A stretch of DNA of 64,000 bases from Candidatus Peregrinibacteria bacterium RIFOXYA2_FULL_41_18 (GTDB lineage: Bacteria; Patescibacteriota; Gracilibacteria; UBA1369; UBA12470), in NCBI GenBank assembly GCA_001788795.1, contig MFXH01000007.1:1-64000 (forward strand), in the 5' to 3' direction. The translations under genes were made by a program, and so were the position numbers. Under the pieces are notes generated by a model. It saw only the letters and a program-made list of their open reading frames with translations, searched no databases and was not told the DNA's origin. Below are positions 5,545-36,936 of this stretch, piece by piece (the first letter of the stretch is position 1; each line of letters opens with the position of its first letter).

Positions 5545-5674
5545 ATCAAAATCATCAAGAGTGGTGGAGGGAATCGGCCCTATGAAACCACAGCAACCGC
5601 TTAAGGTCAGCCTAGATCTAAGGAAGGTGCTAAATCCGACCGCTTCAATTTTAACAGGAGCGGAAGATGTCCAA
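5545..5674 (+). ncRNA. SAM-I (S-box) riboswitch aptamer
   Basis: The S-box core is readable in order: ATCATCAAGAG with the kink-turn side, GGTGGAGGGA, CGGCCC, TATGAAACCACAGCAACC, then AAGGTGCTAAATCC, and the closing GGAAGATG that pairs with ATCATC to form P1. These blocks match the conserved S-box elements that bind S-adenosylmethionine. It lies between a good promoter and metK (SAM synthetase), the expected negative-feedback target. The 3' P1 strand GATGTCC is also complementary to GGACATC of the downstream terminator, giving a clear mutually exclusive antiterminator. Confidence 0.92.
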
Positions 5675-5739: not shown

Positions 5740-6873
5740 ATGGCAACAAATCTATTCACTTCCGAATCTGTTACGGAAGGTCATCCCGATAAGGTTGCGG
5801 ATCAAATATCCGATGCCGTACTGGATGCTCTCATTGCGCAAGATCCGAAGAGCCGCGTAGCTTGCGAAGTCCTTGTTACAACCGGACTTGTTTTATTGGC
5901 CGGCGAAATTACAACCCAAGGTTATGCTGATATCCCCGGAATAGCTCGACAAACAATTAAGGAAATCGGTTATGACGATTCTTCTTACGGTTTCGATTAC
6001 AAGGCCTGCAGCGTTCTAACTGCAATAGACGAACAGAGCCCTGATATCGCAATGGGTGTCGATACAGGAGGAGCGGGAGATCAAGGTATGATGTTCGGTT
6101 TCGCTGTTAATGAGACACCTGAACTCATGCCGATGCCTATTATGATGGCTCACAAGTTGGTACTGAAATTGGCCGAAGTTAGGCGCGCAAAAGGATTAAG
6201 TTATTTAAGACCGGATGGAAAAAGCCAAGTTACAGTCGAGTACGAAAACGGCAAGCCTAAGAGAATTCATACTGTTGTCGTCTCAACACAACATGGACCG
6301 GAAGCTAAACATGAACAAATCAAGGCGGATGTTATCGAACAAATCATCAAGCCCGTTTGCGGAAGCTTGGTTGATGATAAAACGGTTTTTCACGTCAATC
6401 CTACAGGTATGTTTATCATAGGAGGGCCTCCGGGAGACAGTGGTCTTACGGGAAGAAAAATCATAGTTGATACATACGGCGGAATGGGTCGCCACGGAGG
6501 CGGATGTTTCTCCGGCAAAGATCCTACGAAAGTTGATAGAAGCGCGGCTTATGCGTGCAGACACGTTGCAAAAAACATTGTTGCAGCAGGAATCGCAGAT
6601 AAATGCGAGGTTCAAATCGCTTACGCAATCGGTGTACGCGAACCTCTCAGTATTTTCGTTGAAACTTTTGGCACAGGAAAAATTCCGGACGAAAAAATCG
6701 CACAATTGATCCGCGAAAAATTCGACTTAACACCGGGTGGAATCATCGAGAAATATCAGCTTAGAAGGCCGATCTTCAAGAAGACTGCCGCTTACGGACA
6801 TTTCGGTAGAGATTTGCCGGAATTTACGTGGGAAAAGTTGGATATGGTGGATGTGTTGAAGGGTAGTTTATAG
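5740..6873 (+). CDS. metK: S-adenosylmethionine synthetase
   Basis: 377 residues, full length. It makes SAM from methionine and ATP. Visible motifs: the N-terminal [32 protein letters not shown] (ATP motif), [20 protein letters not shown], and the P-loop-like [19 protein letters not shown]. The ATG at 5740 is preceded by AT-rich sequence without a Shine-Dalgarno motif. It lies 22 nt after the riboswitch terminator and is followed by ahcY, so production of SAM and clearance of its demethylated product are adjacent. The 3' flank (6874-6930) is simple sequence of the AGAGATTAGAGA type. Confidence 0.97.
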
Positions 6874-19096: not shown

Positions 19097-20221
19097 ATGA
19101 AGGATTTATACGAAGTTCTAGGTGTTCCGAAAACAGCAACGGATGCGGAAATCAAGAAGGCATACAGGAGGCTTGCACAAAAATATCATCCTGATCTTAA
19201 TAAAAGCGATAAAAGCGCTGAAGCAAGGTTTAAAGAGGTTAATCAAGCCTATGAGGTGCTTTCGGACAAGCAAAAACGTGGTCAGTATGATCAATTTGGA
19301 AATGCTTCGTTCAACGGAGGCGCCGGTGGATTTAACGGATTCCAAGGGTTTGATTTCGGTTCTTTTTCCGGTGGGAATGGCGGATTTTCAGATATATTCG
19401 AAGCTTTTTTTGGAGGAGATATGGGTGGGAGGCGATCTGGTGGTAGAACACGAAAGACAAGTATAAGAGGAGATGATATTGAGTTCGAGTTGAAACTGAC
19501 TTTTGAAGAGGCTGTGCATGGAATAGAAAAAAGTTTTGAAATAACCAAATCCGATACCTGTCCGACTTGTGGCGGAAAAGGCCATGAATCAAGTTCGAAA
19601 ATAATCACATGTTCGAGTTGCAATGGGGCAGGTCAAATCAGATCTGTTAGACAAACTATTTTGGGACAAATCAGCACTTCTCATATATGCAGTAATTGCA
19701 ATGGCGAAGGACGTATACCTGAGAAAAAATGTCCTGAATGCCATGGAACAACTCGAACGCGCCAGAAATCAAAAATAACTGTTAAGATCCCTGCAGGAGT
19801 GGATGATGGCGGTATTATAAAGTTATCCGGAAAAGGAGAGGCCGGAATACGCTCAGGAGGATATGGAGATGTTTATTTGCATTTAAGGGTAATGTCTCAT
19901 AATAAATTTTCTCGAGAAGGAACATATATCAAATCTAATGAAGAGATCGATCTTTTACAGGCAGTTCTCGGGGATCAAATCAAGGTCTCAACGGTATATG
20001 GAGATATTGATCTTAAAATTCCGGCAGGTACTCAGGGCGGGCAGGTATTTACTCTTAAAGGATATGGGGTGAAGCCTCATAACGGTTCAAGCACCGGAGA
20101 TCATCTTGTTAAGGTTTCCGTACGTATTCCCAAGAAGCTTTCTAACAAAGAAAAGCAATTATATGAACAGTTGGCTCAGGAGAAAGGTAAACATGGAGGA
20201 TTTTTCGGTAAAATATTCTAG
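19097..20221 (+). CDS. dnaJ: Chaperone DnaJ
   Basis: 374 residues with every domain in order. The J domain (1-70) has the HPD in YHPDLNK. A Gly/Phe-rich region (75-110) follows. The zinc domain holds four CxxCxGxG-type motifs ([32 protein letters not shown]), followed by the C-terminal substrate-binding domains. It stimulates DnaK ATPase and presents unfolded clients. It stands alone, without dnaK or grpE in the window. A strong hairpin follows the stop. Confidence 0.96.
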
Positions 20222-20230
20222 GTAAATAGC

Positions 20231-20379
20231 ATGAGGGGAACAGCTGGTTCCCCTCATGAACTCCCCTCCAAGCTGTTGTTCGCAAAATAGTCCTCTCGAA
20301 GGCTCGCAAAACGTGCCTTCGGGACCCACAAGACTCCAAGTACGTTTTTCTACGCGACGCTCGGACTGTTTTGCTCACC
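20231..20379. repeat. Structured repeat family S1, copy 1 (downstream of dnaJ)
   Basis: About 150 bp, shared with 36787-36936. Hairpin I is ATGAGGGGAAC/GTTCCCCTCAT (20231-20257), which may also end the dnaJ transcript. After ACTCCCCTCCAAGCTG comes outer stem II, GCAAAATAGTCC (20282-20293) with GGACTGTTTTGC (20363-20374). Inner stem III is AAAACGT (20308-20314) with ACGTTTT (20342-20348). The second copy has different bases but the same pairings. Confidence 0.82.
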
Positions 20380-20463
20380 TTTTTGATTTTTCGACATGTT
20401 GTAATATTCTAGTTGTCAGCAGGTCGAGATTGTAATAGGATGGATTTGAAATAAAAACAAATT

Positions 20464-36694: not shown

Positions 36695-36786
36695 AATAAA
36701 ACTTTAACAGACCTTGCGCAAAATCACAAAATATCGTTATAATTGATATGTTTGAAGGTACAGGATTTTTTAATCCTGTGTTTTTC

Positions 36787-36936
36787 GTGAGTTGAACCTT
36801 GGGTTCCCCTCACGCACTCCCCTCCAAGCTGATGTTCATAAAATAGCTCTCGCGAAGGCTCGCAAAATGCTAATTTTGGACCCAGCGAGACCCAAACTAG
36901 CATTTGGCTACGCGGGCTCAAGCTATTTTACTCACC
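36787..36936. repeat. Structured repeat family S1, copy 2 (upstream of nusA)
   Basis: The second copy of the element found after dnaJ. Hairpin I is GTGAG..GAACC with GGTTC..CTCAC. Shared ACTCCCCTCCAAGCTG follows. Stem II is AAAATAGCT (36840-36848) with AGCTATTTT (36921-36929), and stem III is AAATGCTA (36865-36872) with TAGCATTT (36898-36905). Stem bases differ from copy 1 while pairing is kept. Confidence 0.82.

Follow-up and report, generated by a model that had tools for sequence, protein, structure and literature searches.

A dispersed family of short structured repeats, probably mobile DNA elements, at gene 3' ends in one class of Patescibacteria

The stretch of DNA analysed here (the window) comprises 64,000 nucleotides of contig MFXH01000007.1 from Candidatus Peregrinibacteria bacterium RIFOXYA2_FULL_41_18. 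An initial sequence-only reading had placed two copies of a structured repeat in it, one after dnaJ and one before nusA, with three stems that differ between the copies by compensatory changes. Both locations were confirmed in the sequence and by the Pfam domains of the neighbouring genes (DnaJ, DnaJ_C, NusA_N and KH_5), and all three stem pairs were found, namely CATGAGGGGAAC/GTTCCCCTCATG, GCAAAATAGTCC/GGACTGTTTTGC and AAAACGT/ACGTTTT in copy 1 and CGTGAG..CTCACG, TAAAATAGCT/AGCTATTTTA and AAATGCTA/TAGCATTT in copy 2. A search of the 1.24 Mb genome (20 contigs) located a third copy outside the window, between pdxT and folE. Elsewhere in the window, an Rfam search identified a SAM riboswitch (RF00162) at 5549-5673, upstream of the ORF at 5740-6873.

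Both copies in the window lie on the forward strand, and their hairpins, named H1, P2 and P3, are supported by sequence and covariation. Copy 1 begins with H1 at 20230-20258 (5' arm CATGAGGGGAAC at 20230-20241, loop at 20242-20246, 3' arm at 20247-20258), followed by a linker at 20259-20281, in which ACTCCCCT at 20260-20267 mirrors part of the H1 3' arm and may be the third strand of a triplex. The 5' strand of P2, GCAAAATAGTCC at 20282-20293, pairs with GGACTGTTTTGC at 20363-20374, after which comes CTCACC-TTTTT. Between the two strands lies P3 at 20306-20348 (GCAAAACGT .. ACGTTTT), carrying at 20321-20336 the class-specific apical motif GGGACCCACAAGACTC, with 1 mismatch to the family pattern. 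The copy is flanked by a direct repeat, AATATTCTAG, whose left occurrence at 20212-20221 is the end of dnaJ including its stop codon and whose right occurrence at 20403-20412 runs directly on into native leader sequence.

Copy 2 has the same layout, with H1 at 36786-36814 (CGTGAGTTGAACC-TTG-GGTTCCCCTCACG), a linker at 36815-36838 containing CACTCCCCT at 36815-36823, which mirrors the H1 3' arm, P2 strands TAAAATAGCT at 36839-36848 and AGCTATTTTA at 36921-36930, the latter followed by CTCACC, and P3 at 36865-36905 (AAATGCTA .. TAGCATTT). The variant apical sequence of this hairpin, GGACCCAGCGAGACCC, departs from the family pattern. Copy 2 starts where a terminator-like hairpin with a T run, at 36760-36785 on the same strand (ACAGGATTTTTTAATCCTGT-GTTTTT), comes to its end. 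This nusA-leader hairpin is found in at least three related genomes (loci L342 and L343 among them) and possibly serves autoregulatory attenuation of nusA.

Each of the two copies folded better than 200 of 200 shuffled sequences, both as DNA and as sense RNA. In the energy minimum of copy 1 a competing GAAGGC/GCCTTC hairpin replaces the third stem, so that support for this stem comes from comparison and not from energy. Across the family the anatomy from 5' to 3' is H1, the linker, the long hairpin P2 with an inner stem P2b, P3, whose apex carries the conserved motif GGGRCCYACNAGACCC, and a terminal stretch of CTCAC and T-rich sequence; full copies measure about 150-165 nt, form several hairpins and contain no coding sequence. 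In an alignment of ten homologues, 83% of paired cells were complementary, compared with 39-52% in slid controls, and two-sided changes numbered 71 versus 23.5 after shuffling. With 38 homologues the values were 84% versus 41-55% and 402 versus 128, figures biased towards the structure because this alignment was fitted to it and the shuffles disregard relatedness; the ten-copy MAFFT alignment, which was not fitted to the structure, agrees with them. H1 is paired in 94.5% of cells over the 38 copies, with two-sided changes in 12 of its 12 pairs, and conserved unpaired blocks are also present. The claim that the covariation reflects a selected structure thus held in the larger alignment, and the covariance-model search and covariation test proposed for checking it yielded further homologues with pairing above chance.

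Two covariance models were used for searching, the first built from ten copies in six genomes and the second from 38 copies. The first detected the element in 25 of the 89 genomes of the order and the second in 37 of the 353 genomes of the class, whereas in a 286-genome sample of the phylum the second model was positive only for the genome under study and one genome of the same family, and for none outside the class. Most positive genomes carry 1-9 copies (9 in genome G013) and about 72% of the genomes of the order have none. The apical motif GGGRCCYACNAGACCC has 41 occurrences across 18 of the 89 genomes of the order, against 0 matches for the reversed control pattern, and was restricted to members of the class in a 379-genome sample of the phylum. 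In other families of the class, a compact form made of H1, linker and P3 without P2 is found 3' of stop codons and tRNAs, and solitary P3 modules adjoin tRNA genes. At one locus (L234, 3398-3600), the P3 module and its flanks form three tandem units beside a tRNA gene, the unit also holding CTGCGCGCTCGCACCGTGTGCTCGC. Rfam 15 gave no family at gathering score for copies 1 and 2 or for ten loci with other copies or flanks, and none that was convincing at E<=10. Viral contigs sharing the core 16-mer were dismissed as chance coding matches, and a covariance-model search matched none of the 80 loci retrieved for 86 viral stretches that contain the apical motif. Plasmid and phage records yielded no relative of the element, and no published description of it was found in the open-access PMC literature searched.

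Comparison with related genomes shows that the copies are insertions. The dnaJ site is without the element in G001, of the same family, and both the nusA-leader and the pdxT-folE sites are without it in G001 and G002, also of the same family; a similar nusA-leader hairpin with its T run stands without the element in sister genomes. A site between HIT and rsmI is occupied in G342 and G346 and empty in G343 and G344. The last genome, G344, contains at least 17 copies with 76-93% identity to the G342 copy, and all six of the G344 sites tested are empty in its congeners (G342 and/or G343); these copies represent a recent burst. Several sites are filled in more than one genus and could hold ancient, retained copies. 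The pdxT-folE copy parts an overlapping gene pair, and PdxT of the genome under study reads into the element and has an altered C-terminus. Both flanks of this copy carry ATAAATATCGCGA, the right one running on into the native ATGA stop/start overlap. At the dnaJ site the 10-nt repeat taken alone could be due to chance, since about 2% of control pairs share a repeat at least this long.

Flank repeats or second partial copies shared at least 10 bases in 12 of 41 pairs, compared with 2.3% of control pairs. About one third of the examined copies have either a direct flank repeat or a downstream partial second copy; the direct repeats, of 10-23 nt, concern a minority of copies, and the partial second copies retain the 5' part without the 3' part. 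Such partial copies and repeats suggest a copying step. The recent G344 copies showed no convincing target duplication, and inspection of the aligned copies by eye revealed no consistent terminal inverted repeats. Three G344 copies (L326, L329 and L337) share an identical extra hairpin, CGATCGC..GCGTATCCA, at one common point in the H1 3' arm, which may be a nested insertion or a subfamily mark. The 3' flank of another copy (L133) contains, 34 nt after the element and before the right direct repeat, a near-perfect AT-rich palindrome, CAATCTCGAAATTTTTTAAATTTCGAGATTG.

The insertions are concentrated at gene ends. Among 77 copies, 29 have their start no more than 12 nt from the stop codon of a co-directional CDS, 16 lie at tRNA 3' ends, 5 at 5S 3' ends and 10 after terminator-like hairpins, while 17 are located elsewhere, several of these following tRNAs or hairpins missed by the simple rules applied. 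Between co-directional genes, 33 copies are in sense and 5 in antisense orientation relative to the upstream gene (p=4e-6). In compact genomes the 3' ends of genes are the least harmful sites, which accounts for the location of the copies but not for their orientation. The gene contexts vary from copy to copy, and recurrent protein neighbours were rejected as partner genes, being mostly housekeeping genes at shared sites. Recognition of the target by pairing with the outer H1 3' arm, in the manner of EBS/IBS interactions, was hinted at by three loci (L129, L133 and L161) and was also rejected, since the outer arm of the G344 copies is constant whatever the target. At four copies (L325, L335, L336 and L200) the upstream gene ends in frame at a stop codon provided by the CTGA of H1. 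Copies of family f34 (L192, L200, L324 and others) have, past CTCACTCA, a TATTATA-like element end situated 8-15 nt upstream of the following start codon; it resembles a -10 box and may provide the downstream gene with a promoter.

Read in reverse, the linker corresponds to the H1 3' arm, except that C takes the place of arm G. The arm GTTCCCCTCATG and the linker ACTCCCCT are thus related in copy 1, as are the arm GGTTCCCCTCACG and the linker CACTCCCCT in copy 2. When 79 distinct copies were scored for this mirror relation, the mean z relative to composition-preserving shuffles was 3.2, with 77% of copies at p<=0.05, versus a mean z of 1.1 and 19% for the direct-order control, these copies being related and the trials accordingly not independent. 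Within-type permutations matched the mirror relation in 0 of 5000 cases, and it persists across very different arms (CTCCCC, CTCTCTTTT, CTTTC, CTTCC and CCCCTTTTCC). A pyrimidine third strand mirroring a pyrimidine arm, with arm G read as linker C, is the sequence pattern of a Y-type motif, and its occurrence throughout the family suggests a pyrimidine-motif intrastrand triplex in which the linker would be the third strand. G-rich versions would require protonated third-strand C, a difficulty at neutral pH, and arm positions with A or G fit the canonical triplets poorly. As comparative evidence, the mirror covariation would indicate a role for an intrastrand triplex in living cells, for which support has so far come chiefly from in vitro experiments and the counting of motifs.

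G-U pairs and A-C mismatches were counted in the stems, since structural selection on a sense RNA should strongly favour G-U over A-C. There were 3 G-U versus 24 A-C cells in H1, 34 versus 40 in P3 and 23 versus 22 in P2, a comparison that depends on how well P2 and P3 are aligned. The control, 50 tRNA genes from the same loci, had 80 G-U in 1098 pairs and 0 A-C, this zero being partly built in, as aragorn predicts only paired stems. Since the expected preference was not seen, selection on the fold probably acts at the DNA and not the RNA level. Such a count offers a simple way to tell selection on DNA structure from selection on RNA structure. Of the two possibilities raised in the sequence-only reading, a noncoding RNA or a cruciform mobile element, the mobile element is supported by the empty sites, the burst, the shifting contexts and the lack of G-U preference, and the RNA is less favoured, although the co-orientation with the upstream gene leaves room for an additional RNA role that the element may have alongside its mobility.

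We consider it likely that these copies form a family of short, non-autonomous, REP-like mobile DNA elements limited to one class, probably the Gracilibacteria, and mobilised in trans. The class is inferred from the nearest named dnaJ, which comes from Peregrinibacteria. One strand would fold into H1, with the pyrimidine linker lying as third strand in the H1 groove, and into the branched P2/P2b/P3 structure. This fold would be read as single-stranded or cruciform DNA by a recombinase or a copying enzyme acting in trans, so that copies would have to retain it in order to remain mobile, and the preference for 3' ends would reflect either tolerance or targeting of insertion at these sites. A more specific version, in which the transposition substrate is a three-stranded DNA hairpin with a mirror-covarying third strand, directed by a mobilising machinery to mRNA stops, tRNA, 5S and terminators, is conceivable but doubtful.

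The mobilising enzyme was not found among the candidates checked, RVT_1 and Y1_Tnp. At the threshold used, RVT_1 was absent from the genome under study and from G013, despite the nine copies of the latter, and showed no association with the element across the 89 genomes. Y1_Tnp (PF01797, E<=1e-5) was likewise absent from both genomes, and it occurred in 9 of the 25 element-bearing and 12 of the 64 element-free genomes of the order. Neither reverse transcriptase nor Y1 transposase tracks the element, and both were rejected as partners. The failure to find an enzyme weighs against a mobile element, as do the want of a convincing target duplication in the recent G344 copies, the want of consistent terminal inverted repeats and the sites filled in more than one genus. 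An element that is class-wide and apparently still active, without an obvious enzyme, points to a mobilising system yet to be found. Insertion sequences and repeats have been little described in the reduced genomes of Patescibacteria (CPR).

Other explanations account for part of these observations. The element could be a cis-acting 3'-end RNA, a transcribed trailer that blocks exonucleases or aids termination or processing and has spread through its usefulness, as would fit a fold maintained by compensation, copies that begin where a CDS, tRNA or 5S gene ends or past a terminator, the co-orientation with the upstream gene and an end made of CTCAC and T-rich sequence. However, a useful trailer agrees poorly with a load of 1-9 copies in most positive genomes and 0 in about 72% of the order, many copies are placed after an already existing terminator, G-U pairs are not preferred, and the pdxT-folE copy splits overlapping genes and changes the PdxT C-terminus; we regard this explanation as unlikely. 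A family of trans-acting small RNAs, represented in each genome by several paralogues, would explain the conserved unpaired blocks and the strong covariation, but its gene context is not conserved, no own promoter is evident, G-U pairs are again not preferred and the copy number in one genome is burst-like, so that we give it hardly any credence.

The same insertion sites, at transcript 3' ends and even just past terminators, together with the variable 10-23 nt flank repeats and the partial second copies, would also be expected of a retroposed element, that is a small RNA copied into DNA at transcript 3' ends in a group II- or SINE-like manner. Against this stand the absence of reverse transcriptase from the genome under study and G013 and its lack of association over the 89 genomes, the truncated copies, which hold the 5' and not the 3' part, and the lack of an Rfam group II intron match; retroposition thus appears very unlikely.

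Considered as a mobile DNA element, the family shares features with several known systems. Group IIC introns prefer sites just past terminator hairpins, as the element does, but the element is far too short, matches no domain V or intron family of Rfam and resides in a genome without reverse transcriptase. bcr1 of the Bacillus cereus group, BOX and MITE-like repeats are non-coding, foldable and intergenic sequences of about 100-200 nt. The element resembles them in all these respects and differs in having no sequence or Rfam match, no consistent terminal inverted repeats by eye, no apparent constant short target duplication and other hosts. The repeats bcr1-bcr18 are cited in PMC4666352. Like REP elements, the element is short, non-coding, palindromic and dispersed, sits just downstream of coding regions and supplies stop codons (PMC3733652). 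Unlike REPs, which are single palindromes of 20-40 bp with a GTAG or CGTC tag, it is 150-165 nt long with multiple hairpins, a linker mirroring H1 and an apical motif; no conserved GTAG or CGTC tag was noticed in the aligned copies and, in contrast to REP/RAYT systems, no dedicated Y1 (RAYT) transposase was found in the genome under study. The intrastrand triplex motifs TM/TMECO and ITxF are dispersed bacterial repeats that have been linked with genome instability (PMC4666352), and in them too the purine arm of a hairpin can accept a third strand formed by the hairpin's own DNA strand (PMC4666352). The putative third strand of the element differs in being pyrimidine-rich and parallel, its triplex is suggested by a covarying mirror relation, and it would be one module of a larger element. 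The element thus belongs with the dispersed structured mobile repeats and is a member of neither the REP nor the triplex-motif family.
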